Below are positions 6,601-10,887 of a DNA stretch of 64,000 nucleotides, in pieces. The notes under the pieces were generated by a model that saw only the letters and a program-made list of their open reading frames with translations, was not told where the DNA came from and did not search any database. The DNA lies in the NCBI GenBank assembly GCA_019359395.1, contig JAHHHK010000004.1, forward strand, positions 1 to 64,000, in the 5' to 3' direction. A program made the position numbers and the translations under genes. Numbering within the stretch: position 1 is the stretch's first letter; each line of letters starts with the position of its first letter. This stretch comes from Komarekiella atlantica HA4396-MV6 (GTDB lineage Bacteria > Cyanobacteriota > Cyanobacteriia > Cyanobacteriales > Nostocaceae).

Positions 6601-6963
6601 ATGATGATGATGATGACCGAATCCATGACTACCGAAATGCAAACTTGCATGAAAGCTTGCATGGAATGTCACAAAATGTGCATGGAAACTATGGCTTACT
6701 GCATGAGCAAAGGCGGTAAGTACATGGACATGAGCATGATGAGCATGATGCGCGATTGTTCAGAAATGTGCATGATGTGTATGAACATGATGATGGGCGG
6801 TTCCGAGTTCATGGGACGCACTTGTATGCTTTGTGCGGAAATGTGCGATCGCTGTGCAATGGTTTGTGAAAAAATGAGCGATGACCCCAAGATGATGGAA
6901 TGCGCCGCCGCTTGCCGCAAGTGTGCAGAATCTTGCAAATCTATGCAAATGATGCCTGCTTAA
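6601..6963 (+). CDS. Met/Cys-rich four-helix-bundle copper-storage-like protein
   Basis: 120 aa with 36 Met and 17 Cys by count. The cysteines sit in repeated CxxxC, CxxC and CMxxC patterns along predicted helices (for example TCMKACMECHKMC and CRKCAESC). This matches the DUF326/Csp family of cytosolic copper-storage proteins, which line the core of a four-helix bundle with Cys and bind many Cu(I) ions. There is no signal peptide, which favours a cytosolic Csp3-like role. AGGAG about 9 bases upstream supports the first of five consecutive ATGs. The Met content is unusually high even for the family. The gene is monocistronic and ends in a strong hairpin. Confidence 0.8.
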   Translation: MMMMMTESMTTEMQTCMKACMECHKMCMETMAYCMSKGGKYMDMSMMSMMRDCSEMCMMCMNMMMGGSEFMGRTCMLCAEMCDRCAMVCEKMSDDPKMMECAAACRKCAESCKSMQMMPA

Positions 6964-7235: not shown

Positions 7236-8033
7236 ATGAAACACCTAAAATCCCGTTCTCAAGACCTGCGGAGTTTGTTTGAGAACAATATCACAATTGA
7301 ATATGTGGCTGAACCCTTGAAAGCTGTGCCAGATGACGCTGAGGTGTCAGAGGTGCTGTATTGGATGCGCCTACAGGATTTTGATGTTGTTGGTCTGGAG
7401 ACGGGAGATACTATTAGTGGCTATGTTGAACGCTCCAGTTTAATGCAAGCCAAATCTGGCAAGTGTAGAGATTATCAACGGGTGTTTCATCCCAAAGAAC
7501 TCATTGCTATTTCCACCCCATTAATGAAGTTGTTACCCATCTTGCAACAAACTCCTCGATTGTTTGTCCTAGACTGTAATCAAGTGAGTGGAATTGTTAC
7601 CTGTGGCGACTTGCAAAAAGCACCCGCGCGGATGCTCCTGTTTGGCTTAGTAACCTTACTAGAGATGAATTTGCTACGGCTAGTGCGGCTTTATTATCCC
7701 CAAGATTCTTGGCAGCAAGTCTTGAAACCTGAGCGGTTAAAAGTTGCCCAACGCCTATGGCGAGAGAGTCAGGAAAGAAATGAAGCAACAGATTTGTTAG
7801 ATTACTTGCAATTCTGTGATAAGCGAGAGTTGGTTTTAAATCAACCAGAACTTCTTGAGCAATTGGGATTAAAATCGAAGCGGTTTGGCGAACGCTTCCT
7901 AAAGTCTGCCGAACAGTTGCGAAATCGATTGGCTCACGCCCAAAGTTTAGTTAGTGGTTCTTCTTGGATAGAGTTGATTTCCTTAGCAGAGGCAATGGAA
8001 ACACTGTTAATCCGCTGTGAAGAAATTGAGTGA
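7236..8033 (+). CDS. CBS-domain protein with C-terminal HEPN-like motif
   Basis: 265 aa. The first 130 or so residues have the alternating strand/helix pattern of two CBS motifs (PDDAEVSEVLYWMRLQDFDV...ISGYV and TPRLFVLD...SGIVTCGDL). The second half is helical and contains RNRLAH at 229-234, which fits the RNxxxH signature of HEPN RNases. In a CBS-HEPN fusion the CBS part would sense a nucleotide and the HEPN part might act on RNA or bind nucleic acid; this is inference. There is no partner nucleotidyltransferase or antitoxin beside it. The start is the ATG at 7236. An uncharacterised CBS protein without catalytic activity is the conservative reading. Confidence 0.55.
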   Translation: MKHLKSRSQDLRSLFENNITIEYVAEPLKAVPDDAEVSEVLYWMRLQDFDVVGLETGDTISGYVERSSLMQAKSGKCRDYQRVFHPKELIAISTPLMKLLPILQQTPRLFVLDCNQVSGIVTCGDLQKAPARMLLFGLVTLLEMNLLRLVRLYYPQDSWQQVLKPERLKVAQRLWRESQERNEATDLLDYLQFCDKRELVLNQPELLEQLGLKSKRFGERFLKSAEQLRNRLAHAQSLVSGSSWIELISLAEAMETLLIRCEEIE

Positions 8034-8335
8034 ATGGTTTATGACTGCAACTATTGATGGTTTTGTAACCAAGTTGCCAAATCCGCTGCTGTAAAAATCA
8101 AATTGAATAAATATTCTGGCATAACTAGCTTTTTGAATAATAAATAGATAAAAGCTGGGAAATTATCCTGTTTAATCTCTTTTTTTAGTTAATATAAGTT
8201 TCAAAGTTAGAATTTTTGAATTTTTCCATGTGTAATTTGTTTGTGCTACATTTTGTAGTTTTGAGCATGAGTTAAATTATCTAACTAATCAAAGTAATAT
8301 ATTTTCTTTAACTAAAGAGTGAATCTGATGTAATT
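8034..8335. other. AT-rich intergenic region
   Basis: Nothing recognisable is seen here. The region is very AT-rich and ends where the conserved leader of the first peptide gene begins; its promoter is presumably here. Confidence 0.3.
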
Positions 8336-8484
8336 CAAAAGCTAGAAATTTAGCATATTTGTTTCTAACTTTAGGAGAGTTTAATCTCTAGAAAATATGT
8401 CTAAAACTAAAAGCGTAGGTATTACACATCTATCTGTTTTCCAAGCGTGTGTGTAACACCTGTGTTGTGAAATTGAGGAAACGA
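8336..8484 (+). promoter_or_regulatory. Conserved structured 5' leader (copy B) of the first GG-leader peptide gene
   Basis: Bases 8336-8431 match 9272-9367 at 91 of 96 positions, and all five differences are transitions. Visible structures are a GCTAG/TTTAGC hairpin, the TAGGAGA/TCTCTA hairpin, and a long-range stem pairing GGTATTACACA (8418-8428) with TGTGTAACACC (8450-8460). TTGAGG lies just before the ATG. No known riboswitch class was recognised. It could be a promoter region, an RNA thermometer or attenuator, or a leader-peptide region. Confidence 0.5.
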
Positions 8485-8486
8485 TT

Positions 8487-8690
8487 ATGTCAGATCAAGT
8501 TATCAAATCAGACTTACTTGTGGAGTTATCCGCAGACGAACAGCAGGTTGTAGCTGGAGGAAAATATTACGGCGGTTTCTATGGTCGTGGCTCCTATGGC
8601 GGTCGTGGATTCTATGGCGGTCGTGGATTCTATGGTGGTCGTGGATTCTATGGCGGTCGTGGTTTTTATGGCGGTCGTGGTTTTTACTAA
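8487..8690 (+). CDS. Double-glycine-leader peptide precursor with GGRGFY repeats
   Basis: 67 aa. Residues 1-25 are an acidic leader MSDQVIKSDLLVEL... ending in AGG, the double-glycine site normally cut by a C39 peptidase/ABC exporter. The core of 42 residues is Gly/Tyr/Phe/Arg only, apart from one Lys and one Ser. It ends in five exact GGRGFY units encoded by 18-bp tandem repeats. The leader is almost identical to that of the peptide at 9428. Such leaders define cyanobacterial bacteriocin-like (CTB-type) precursors, but no maturation or export gene is adjacent. It may be a secreted antimicrobial, a matrix peptide or a signal. TTGAGG sits before the ATG, and codon use in the repeat is uniform, which suggests recent expansion. 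Confidence 0.75.
   Translation: MSDQVIKSDLLVELSADEQQVVAGGKYYGGFYGRGSYGGRGFYGGRGFYGGRGFYGGRGFYGGRGFY
8598..8687 (+). repeat. Five 18-bp tandem repeats coding GGRGFY
   Basis: Five contiguous 18-base units run to the last sense codon. They differ only at silent positions, such as GGC/GGT and GGA/GGT. The exact period makes copy-number change by slippage likely. Confidence 0.95.
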
Positions 8691-8751
8691 GTTAATCCAG
8701 CTTGCGAACTAGTAGCCTTGTAGTTCAAAGTCTAAAATTAGCAAGGCAACG

Positions 8752-8811
8752 AGAAGACTGATATAACTCGCTCAAGCTAAATCAAGTCTTGGGCAAGTTT
8801 ATCAGTCTTCT
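8752..8811 (+). terminator. Long-stem hairpin after the first peptide gene
   Basis: AGAAGACTGATA (8752-8763) pairs perfectly with TATCAGTCTTCT (8800-8811) around a 36-base loop, 62 bases after the stop. A diverged version of this 3' region follows the second peptide gene (about 9636-9735). There is no good T-run, so a structured 3' UTR is as likely as a terminator. Confidence 0.45.
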
Positions 8812-9271
8812 ATGTTCTCTTAAAGCATCAAATGAAAGGTCTGGAGACAATAAAGTAAACCGCTACTATAGCACCTAATTTTCTGCCTTACTTTACTTCA
8901 GATACAAATAGTTTTGACTAACTGACAAGCAGCTATCTTATAGTCTAACTAAAGGCGATCGCAGTAATTTTATATCCATCAAGTTATTTTCCAAGATGGA
9001 AATACTATTTATAGTAATTCTATTCGCTCTGTGAAAGTTGCAAGACTTCAAAAACTCAGTTTTTTTAGTTTCAAGGAACCATTTTATAGAAAAATTACAT
9101 CAAATTTAAATTCATAGGCTTATATAAAGCTCTTTACTAGTAAATACTTGAGTAAGCTATCACCAGTAAGAGTTTGTAAACAAGTGTAAAATATTTAAAC
9201 AATAAAAATAAGATTGCTCATTGTATTCAAGAAAATATTTCATTCAACTTAAGATAGTATTCAGCATCAAC
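8812..9271. other. Intergenic region between the duplicated peptide genes
   Basis: About 460 AT-rich bases with one HIP1-like site near 8956. No ORF, RNA gene or terminator beyond the listed hairpin was recognised. It separates two copies of a duplicated unit (leader, peptide, 3' region) whose start codons are 941 bp apart. Confidence 0.4.
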
Positions 9272-9425
9272 CAAAAGCTAGAGATTTAGCATATTTGTTT
9301 CTAACTTTAGGAGAGTTTAATCTCTAGGAAATATGTCTAGAACTAAAAGCGTAGGTATTGCACACCTCAACTAAATTAGTTGTACAGATGTGTGTAACAT
9401 CTATGTACTGAATTGAGGTCAATCA
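9272..9425 (+). promoter_or_regulatory. Conserved structured 5' leader (copy C) of the second GG-leader peptide gene
   Basis: Same element as 8336-8431. The long-range stem is kept with wobble pairs: GGTATTGCACA (9353-9363) against TGTGTAACATC further down. The loop here gains its own perfect hairpin, CAACTAA/TTAGTTG. TTGAGG lies before the ATG at 9428. Confidence 0.5.
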
Positions 9426-9427
9426 TT

Positions 9428-9613
9428 ATGTCAGATCAAGTCATCAAATCCGATTTGCTTGTAGACTTACCCACAGAAGAACAGCAGCTTCTATCTGGAG
9501 GTCGTTGGGGCGGCTGGCGTGGAGGCTGGCGTGGAGGCTGGCGCGGCGGCTGGCGCGGAGGCTGGCGCGGCGGCTGGCGCGGACGCCGCTGGGGCCGCCG
9601 CGGCTGGTGGTAA
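9428..9613 (+). CDS. Double-glycine-leader peptide precursor with GGWR repeats
   Basis: 61 aa from the ATG at 9428. That start is chosen because it matches the paralogue exactly and follows TTGAGG; an in-frame ATG five codons earlier overlaps the ribosome site. The 25-residue leader MSDQVIKSDLLVDL... ends in SGG. The 36-residue core contains only Gly (15), Arg (11) and Trp (10): RW, then six GGWR units, then GRRWGRRGWW. The predicted charge is about +11. Arg/Trp-rich compositions are typical of membrane-active antimicrobial peptides, but that role is inference. The coding repeat is far more GC-rich than its surroundings. No modification enzyme or transporter is nearby. Confidence 0.75.
   Translation: MSDQVIKSDLLVDLPTEEQQLLSGGRWGGWRGGWRGGWRGGWRGGWRGGWRGRRWGRRGWW
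9509..9580 (+). repeat. Six 12-bp tandem repeats coding GGWR
   Basis: Six in-frame 12-base units (GG[AC]GGCTGGCG[TC]-like) vary only at third positions, embedded in an AT-rich region. Confidence 0.93.
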
Positions 9614-9960
9614 GACACCAAAGCTTACAGATTAGGTAGTCTTGTAGTTTCAATGTTGTAATTAGCGGGGGAGGAGATGACTTGCATAACTCGCTTAATA
9701 CAAATCAAGTTTTGAGAGAGTTTGTACAGTCTTCTTTGTTTTCTCAAGACGTTTAATAAACTAACGGCTGAGAAACAAGAAAGGAAACCTATATATTTAG
9801 TGCCTACCTTTCTACTTCGCCCGCATTGATGAAAAAATGACTTTGATTAGTTGAAAAATAAATTTTTTACGTTAGACTTTACAAGTGTAAACATACAATA
9901 GAATCATTCTTGAAGTATGTAACCCCCAAAGCTTGAAGGATGGGGGTTATTGATTAAAAA
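9614..9960. other. 3' region of the second peptide gene
   Basis: No gene seen. Bases 9636-9735 are a diverged copy of the region following the first peptide gene. The part next to the hydrolase holds the hairpin listed at 9921-9948. Confidence 0.4.
9921..9948. terminator. Hairpin between peptide gene and convergent hydrolase gene
   Basis: AACCCCCA (9921-9928) pairs with TGGGGGTT (9941-9948). It lies 13 bases beyond the stop of the leftward hydrolase gene and could serve both directions. No T-run is present on either strand. Confidence 0.5.
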
Positions 9961-10887
9961 TTATGCCTCTAACTTTTCCGAGTTTATTACCGCTAATCGC
10001 TCCCAAACCCAATCTTGTAAAATCGGATTTACTAACTCAGGAGCTTCATCTTGGGGACAATGGCCTACTCCTTCTAGGGGAATAAACTTGAGTACTTGCG
10101 GAAAGTTGGCTAATTCTCTTCCCAACTCAATTGGTTCCCAAGGATCAGCTGTTCCCCACAAGAGGATCGCGGGACAAGGTAGCAGTGGTAAAAGGTCTTC
10201 TGGTAATGGCCCTGTAGAATAACCAGTAAAGGCAAGAAACACAGCCACAGCACCGGGATCACTTGCTGGTGACATGAGAATATCCACTAACTCATCTGTT
10301 ACTACTTCAGCGTTAGCATAGGCTTTTAATAAAATCTTCCGTACTGTTTTCGGTTTAGCAACTTGATTGAAAAAGAACTTGCCAAGTGGTTTGATAGATA
10401 ATAGGCGTTGTAACAAAGGTGCTCCGACACGACGATACCAAGGTAGAGTTGCCCGTTTGCGATCGTGTAAGAGCCGTAGAGAACAATTGAGCAGAGCAAC
10501 TCCTAAAGCAATATCTGGATTGCTCACTGCGGCTTGCATAACCACAATACAGCCGATAGAATTTCCTACTAAAAAAGCTGGCTCACCCACAACTTCGCGG
10601 CAAAAATCTGCTACTTGCTGTCCCCAAGTTTCCAGTGTGTAGGTAATTTCTTCACCTGGTTGAGGTTTAGCTGAAGCACCAAAACCAATCAAATCAATAG
10701 AATAAACACGGCAATTGTCTGCTAGTACAGGTATATTTTTACGCCAATGCCACCAACAAGCACCAAAGCCATGTACCAGAACAACGGCTGGCCCAGTAGT
10801 TCCTTGGGTTTGATAGCAGATAGGAAAATCTTGCCAAATCCAGGTTTTTGTAGAAGCAAGTGTTGTTGTTGAACTAGAGGTTGTCAT
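9961..10887 (-). CDS. Alpha/beta-fold hydrolase
   Basis: 308 aa. Classical features are VLVHGFGACWWHW (oxyanion loop, 36-48), the nucleophile elbow VGNSIG with S110, an acidic residue in GTADPW (D248), and the catalytic His in GVGHCPQD (H276). No signal peptide, so cytosolic or peripheral. The family includes plant chloroplast and cyanobacterial esterase-like enzymes related to pheophytinase and epoxide hydrolases; the substrate cannot be told from sequence. The gene is single, reads toward the peptide genes, and is followed by a hairpin. Confidence 0.85.
   Translation of the reverse strand: MTTSSSTTTLASTKTWIWQDFPICYQTQGTTGPAVVLVHGFGACWWHWRKNIPVLADNCRVYSIDLIGFGASAKPQPGEEITYTLETWGQQVADFCREVVGEPAFLVGNSIGCIVVMQAAVSNPDIALGVALLNCSLRLLHDRKRATLPWYRRVGAPLLQRLLSIKPLGKFFFNQVAKPKTVRKILLKAYANAEVVTDELVDILMSPASDPGAVAVFLAFTGYSTGPLPEDLLPLLPCPAILLWGTADPWEPIELGRELANFPQVLKFIPLEGVGHCPQDEAPELVNPILQDWVWERLAVINSEKLEA

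Follow-up and report, generated by a model that had tools for sequence, protein, structure and literature searches.

What are two short neighboring genes that share a leader and continue into simple glycine-rich repeats, which machinery would export their products, and what would these do outside the cell? The question is posed by a window of 64,000 nucleotides (positions 1 to 64,000, forward strand, of contig JAHHHK010000004.1, assembly GCA_019359395.1) from the cyanobacterium Komarekiella atlantica HA4396-MV6, whose coordinates are used below unless another contig or locus is named. An initial annotation, made from the letters of this window, had read the two genes as a leader-swapped pair of secreted peptides, antimicrobial or matrix-forming, matured by enzymes encoded elsewhere. 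By comparing the locus with other genomes of its genus, family and order, we arrive at a different history for the pair and at a candidate exporter.

Two precursor genes with repeat cores

P1 (8487..8690, plus strand, 67 aa), which is in the ORF list, comprises a 25-aa leader ending in AGG (8487..8561) and a 42-aa core with five GGRGFY units (8562..8687). P2 (9428..9613, plus strand, 61 aa) comprises a 25-aa leader ending in SGG (9428..9502) and a 36-aa core with six GGWR units, made of Gly, Arg and Trp only (9503..9610). For P2 the ORF list gives a 66-aa frame with a TTG start (9413-9613), and we consider the ATG at 9428 the better reading because GAGG precedes it. The start-and-leader regions form a repeat (8448-8560 and 9389-9501, 79% identity, spacing 941 bp) in which the two leaders agree at 18 of 25 residues (72%), and the repeats 3' of the genes have diverged to 74–76% identity. 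The duplicated pair with its 941-bp spacing, the shared leader ending in GG, the diverged 3' regions and the repeat counts thus stand as the initial annotation had described them, as does a 96-bp upstream element (8336..8431 and 9272..9367, plus strand, 95% identity, spacing 936 bp), related copies of which precede other leader genes of the genome and genus. Its description of the cores as entirely different goes too far: both share glycine, aromatic residues and arginine. With no Asp or Glu in either, the P1 core has 7 Lys plus Arg (net charge +7) and the P2 core 11 Arg (net charge +11); His and Cys are likewise absent from both. We also considered gene conversion between the upstream copies and set it aside, the two copies in genome G003 differing at 3 of 94 positions and its P2 copy differing from that of the window genome (G000) at 6, a pattern that is suggestive only.

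Within the genus, P1 is carried by three of five genomes (the window genome and two of the four others, G001 to G004) and a P2-type gene by all five, as a nearly identical copy in three of the four others and in more diverged form in the fourth. Within the P2 core, G001 differs from G003 and from G004 by nine synonymous and no nonsynonymous changes each, G003 and G004 show zero codon changes, and comparisons with the window genome give 10–12 synonymous and 3 nonsynonymous changes. The P1 core shows five synonymous changes and one nonsynonymous change relative to the window genome, and is unchanged between G001 and G003. This synonymous excess is present in the leader as well as the core. Because the substitutions are mostly synonymous and the length differences among the genus genomes are whole codons, P1 and P2 are, on this comparative evidence, coding genes that are translated and whose peptide sequence is under selection. 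A Pfam search of both precursors returned nothing above cut-off, and a P2 query matched 4 of 148 genomes of the order at E ≤ 1e-5, the cores not carrying far.

A leader family with variable cores

The leaders carry further than the cores. A profile built on 18 leaders identifies 14 clear members in the window genome, each matched over 25 residues and together spanning nine contigs: two in the window, four on contig C71 and eight scattered. The conserved leader is found in 72 of 145 genomes of the family (E ≤ 1e-6), which bears out the expectation of homologues in relatives. The sister cores in the window genome vary widely and include poly-His cores, Asp-rich cores with Cys, and YYGKPWG repeats. 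One leader-family gene on contig C21 (L070 7311-7589) has a core with an 11-His run and the family dyad described below upstream of it; another, on contig C75 (L072 7112-7306), encodes a YYGKPWG repeat peptide preceded by the long form of that dyad, away from exporter and hydrolase.

Against the CTB family bacteriocin model NF038167, the two window leaders score 28.5 and 14.2 bits, below the cut-off of 32; the matches cover profile positions 1-23 and 1-22 of 72, and the cores do not align. Two genes in the window genome do exceed the cut-off, and they belong to a separate precursor array on contig C56, where five tandem, near-identical GG precursors with LIDVTQIAAVRTNFEV cores lie about 280 bp apart (L068 4753-6112; C56 149752-151111) near another C39 exporter.

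A conserved export cluster and its probable split

Downstream of P2 and convergent with it lies an alpha/beta hydrolase gene (9961..10887, minus strand; Abhydrolase_6, 1.3e-24), which we treat as a syntenic marker of the ancestral cluster and do not propose as part of the export machinery. In 35 of 50 relatives, counted where the exporter had at least 77% identity and was followed by at least 4 kb of sequence, the order is HlyD, C39-peptidase ABC exporter, leader peptides and alpha/beta hydrolase; the other 15 loci have no hydrolase. Across 80 named exporter loci, HlyD is present in 75 and the hydrolase downstream in 36, and in the 21 loci below 77% identity the hydrolase is found in none. Among the stretches L155 to L194, 35 of 40 contain the exporter, and 27 of those 35 the hydrolase. 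The cluster is unsplit in G002, of the same genus, and in G005, of a sister genus, where GGW-type genes are flanked by the hydrolase on one side and by the remaining leader genes, the exporter and HlyD on the other. It is otherwise in the window genome and in G001, G003 and G004, which make up four of the five from the genus: there one contig carries the exporter and another the pair (or just P2), and these contigs, being drafts, give no distance between exporter and pair. P1 and P2 would then be cargo genes left behind after a conserved export cluster split. P1 and P2 are therefore not simply orphan precursors, since 35 of the 50 relatives hold exporter, leader peptides and hydrolase together.

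In G058, a genome of another genus, the order is a GYGRGFY-type gene, a GGWRRGHW-type gene and then the hydrolase; the two peptide genes lie 671-673 bp apart and resemble each other in upstream sequence (84%) and in the start-and-leader region (80%). Because G058 shows the same gene order, the tandem order in the window is either ancient or of repeated origin. The leaders and upstream elements of P1 and P2 are paralogous, and with the same order in G058 this argues that the genes occupy a single cargo slot in tandem and are not the product of a leader swap. Records of Dolichospermum and Aphanizomenon, which are planktonic bloom formers, also carry the cluster, so that it is not tied to mats.

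Two further genes drew our attention. In 26 of 36 loci (for example L197 11368-11685) the exporter is directly followed by a gene of about 105 aa with a diverged leader (LSEEEQETLAAG) and a conserved core, apparently another cargo, which the leader profile missed in most loci and which was not seen on C71; an opposite-strand ORF lies over it in 15 of the 36. In the window itself, 6601-6963 encodes a Met- and Cys-rich protein of 120 aa with a weak DUF326 match, which may resemble copper-storage proteins.

Assignment of a candidate exporter

The initial annotation had expected maturation enzymes encoded elsewhere and proposed a search for C39 transporters in the genome, and one was found on C71 (91982-94141): a 720-aa C39-peptidase ABC exporter beside a 558-aa HlyD and four leader-family genes. 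Pfam recognizes C39, ABC membrane and ABC ATPase domains in it, without an N-terminal cyclic-nucleotide domain (the short type), and the ABC-type bacteriocin transporter of PDB 4ry2 matches its residues 9-717. When orthologs of this exporter are defined by at least 77% identity (the next protein in the list has 74%), 67 of the 145 family genomes have both exporter and leader family, 3 have just the exporter, 5 just the leader and 70 neither, in a set of genomes that are related to each other, a relatedness that p-values ignore. We regard this co-occurrence as the best evidence on which transporter serves the pair, and it suggests that a C71-type transporter most likely cleaves P1 and P2 after GG and exports their cores. 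Because eight C39 loci occur in this genome, among them a paralog with 67% identity to the C71 exporter, the assignment stops short of proof, and another exporter could serve P1 and P2 instead.

A cargo slot that may keep composition

A Gly-rich, aromatic, acid-poor core is found in 20 of 36 hydrolase-side genes versus 5 of 59 other genes between exporter and hydrolase (Fisher 1.3e-6), a comparison that uses 36 of the 80 loci and a composition rule set after inspection; the remaining 16 hydrolase-side genes lie outside the rule. The repeat units change by lineage and include GGWR, GGRGFY, GGFRR, PWGGPP, GRGWGGY, WWGGGHHRRG and GGGWGRPR, among others. We rejected as a rule the pairing of oppositely charged cores in each cluster, since cores of at least +3 and of at most -3 occur together in only 8 of 36 clusters.

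One tentative idea, possible rather than probable in our estimate, is that a single cargo slot of the exporter has long kept a composition (Gly, aromatic, Arg/His) and not a sequence, and that the secreted, unfolded sticker-and-spacer peptides condense on or cross-link the sheath as extracellular bacterial counterparts of RGG/FG-type low-complexity proteins. In the 36 loci, the interval from exporter to hydrolase shows no recurrent modification gene of 50-400 aa, the recurrent ORFs of this size being leader-like, and for that reason the exported cores are probably unmodified.

Flanking dyads and stem-loops

Each gene of the pair is preceded by a dyad. The first (8412..8466, plus strand) is a long form of the family 5' hairpin and pairs in the minimum free energy (MFE) fold with a z of only -1.15; the second (9351..9404, plus strand) is an inverted repeat by comparison, and MFE folding of 9354-9430 gives a different pairing. 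Taken alone, then, the window copies fold no better than shuffles, and the evidence for the dyad comes from the family, in the window genome from 10 of its 14 leader genes as judged by eye. In the last 75 nt before 161 leader genes, inverted repeats reach score 10 in 102, against 25% in shuffles and 51 of 161 in far-upstream controls, which are also above shuffles. This set excludes non-ATG starts and 33 genes that were filtered out; the filter against CTB-like genes, which removed cores with DFEL, SGP or SSP and also dropped SSPDI-type cores, was used in this test and in the 5'-arm and long-hairpin tests below.

A fairer test than a stem-selected alignment takes genes by their 5' arm only. 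Among 118 non-redundant genes, a complete partner was found for 49 of 102 arms versus 13.3 in shuffles, and for 39 versus 1.6 when only Watson-Crick pairs were allowed; in the control region, 11 of 65 arms had a partner. An alignment of 26 stem-bearing rows shows both-side changes in 6 of 8 pairs and 92.8% paired cells, a figure that is inflated because the rows were chosen for having the stem and 5 off-pattern ones were left out of an initial 31 that were non-redundant and had a stem. The usual sequence is ATAGGTG-loop-CACCTAT, in most cases 20-25 nt upstream of the start. Because a TATAAA/TAATAAT-like box sits about 7-10 nt upstream of the stem, we infer a hairpin near the mRNA 5' end, with an operator as the alternative reading. 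The shared dyad, just before the ribosome site, would accordingly be common to the family as one or the other.

The window genes carry the longer form of the dyad, which in other genera is commoner before Gly/aromatic genes than before others at high scores only: at score 16 the contrast is 20 of 32 versus 51 of 90 (p 0.68), at score 17 p is 0.09, at score 19 it is 12 of 32 versus 7 of 90, and a rank test gives p 0.008. On the 3' side, stem-loops follow both P1 (8745..8819, plus strand, -33.9 kcal/mol, z -7.05) and P2 (9668..9745, plus strand, -25.2 kcal/mol, z -3.05); they are without a clear T run and possibly mark mRNA 3' ends or act as stabilizers. An Rfam search of 7900-10400 gave zero matches up to E = 1.

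Proposed function and alternatives

The reading that we favor, and to which we give about an even chance, is that P1 and P2 are cargo of a split export cluster, exported by the C71 exporter, with a matrix or adhesive role. By analogy with the C39 family, the peptidase domain would cut both precursors after GG during transport, and the transporter, together with HlyD and an outer-membrane channel, would release a 42-aa GGRGFY peptide and a 36-aa GGWR peptide. Outside the cell, and here we are less confident, the cationic aromatic cores, probably unfolded and unmodified, may stick to each other and also bind anionic sheath polysaccharide through arginine and aromatic contacts, serving as matrix or adhesion material in a role like that of EbfG1-4 of Synechococcus elongatus. 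In our analysis a matrix or adhesive function is the first choice and an antimicrobial one the second, because a constant composition with changing repeats would fit material properties and because the EbfG GG peptides are needed for biofilm and are partly amyloid. Nor does an immunity-like gene of 50-400 aa recur in the exporter-to-hydrolase interval of the 36 loci, which leans toward the matrix reading. Counting against the favored reading are the further C39 loci of the genome, the 16 hydrolase-side genes outside the composition rule, the 15 exporter loci without the hydrolase, and the presence of the cluster in planktonic bloom formers.

Antimicrobial peptides would take the same export route, with the Trp/Arg and Tyr/Phe/Arg cores disturbing the membranes of competitors. 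The abundance of aromatic residues and the net charges of +7 and +11 speak for this, a Trp/Arg-rich cationic composition suits an antimicrobial equally well, the leader resembles those of CTB family bacteriocins (below cut-off), and the cluster type was named a bacteriocin cluster in the cited parts of PMC3140520. Set against these points are the same lack of a recurrent immunity-like gene of 50-400 aa in that interval and the strict conservation of the P2 core between some species, which is disfavored under arms races, and on balance we consider an antimicrobial role a serious rival of rather low probability.

More doubtful still are signals or scavenging and binding peptides (for polysaccharide, metal or phosphate) used in cell-cell communication or nutrient acquisition. 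C39 exporters also occur in signaling, as proposed for HetC (PMC10986499), a Nodularia cluster annotated as CTB, whose identity with the present cluster is not established, is described as induced by phosphate starvation (PMC9846622), and sister cores in the window genome are rich in His, Asp or Cys; yet the window cores have none of these three residues, and repeat units that change from lineage to lineage fit poorly with a receptor. Chance low-complexity ORFs or decaying untranslated duplicates, which the short, repetitive frames, the presence of P1 in only three genus genomes and the narrow reach of the P2 query might suggest, are scarcely credible in view of the synonymous excess in leader and core, the in-frame length changes and the conservation of leader family and slot.

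Two odd repeat ORFs can now be put to the test as parts of a secretion system in which the exporter is named, the cut site is predicted and the cargoes form a series across the family. The case also shows that synteny in relatives can point 'orphan' GG precursors to their exporter. Should the cores be matrix material, filamentous cyanobacteria would hold a natural library of Gly/aromatic/Arg peptides ready for export, and a single exporter knock-out could test the role of C39 peptides in these organisms.

Comparison with known systems

The closest known type is the group III cluster of cyanobacteria (PMC3140520; Wang, Fewer and Sivonen 2011), with which the present system shares an HlyD, a short-type C39-peptidase ABC transporter and several GG precursors with variable cores. 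The cores described there are highly diverse and rich in Gly, Cys, Ser and Thr, with two other leader families, and the results cited from that report include neither a hydrolase-side slot with Gly/aromatic/Arg repeat cores nor a split of cluster and cargo, both of which mark the present system. GG precursors lie beside the transporter, as in group III, in the relatives but not in the window, whose pair is not beside the exporter. For the second, peptidase-less ABC transporter that marks group V, a length check of three stretches (L067, L080 and L081) found no ORF longer than the exporter.

The EbfG1-4/PteB system of S. elongatus offers a parallel in kind: it too has several small GG peptides whose export is aided by a C39 exporter and which are needed for biofilm (PMC4997328), and EbfG1-3 form amyloid (PMC9981879). 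It differs in that its biofilm role is experimental, that mature EbfG is reported by its authors to be without homologs (PMC4997328, PMC9981879), and that the P1 and P2 cores are tandem repeats. The likeness to the CTB family (NF038167) is at the start of the leader profile, with window scores below cut-off and unaligned cores. Relative to PDB 4ry2 and related peptidase-containing ABC transporters, with which the C71 exporter aligns over nearly its whole length, the cyanobacterial exporter has HlyD as its partner and a repetitive cargo. Within the open-licence literature we found no paper on such repeat cargoes or on a hydrolase-side slot. Overall, the type of system is known, as the cyanobacterial group III C39 clusters, and the Gly/aromatic/Arg repeats appear to be a new form of its cargo.
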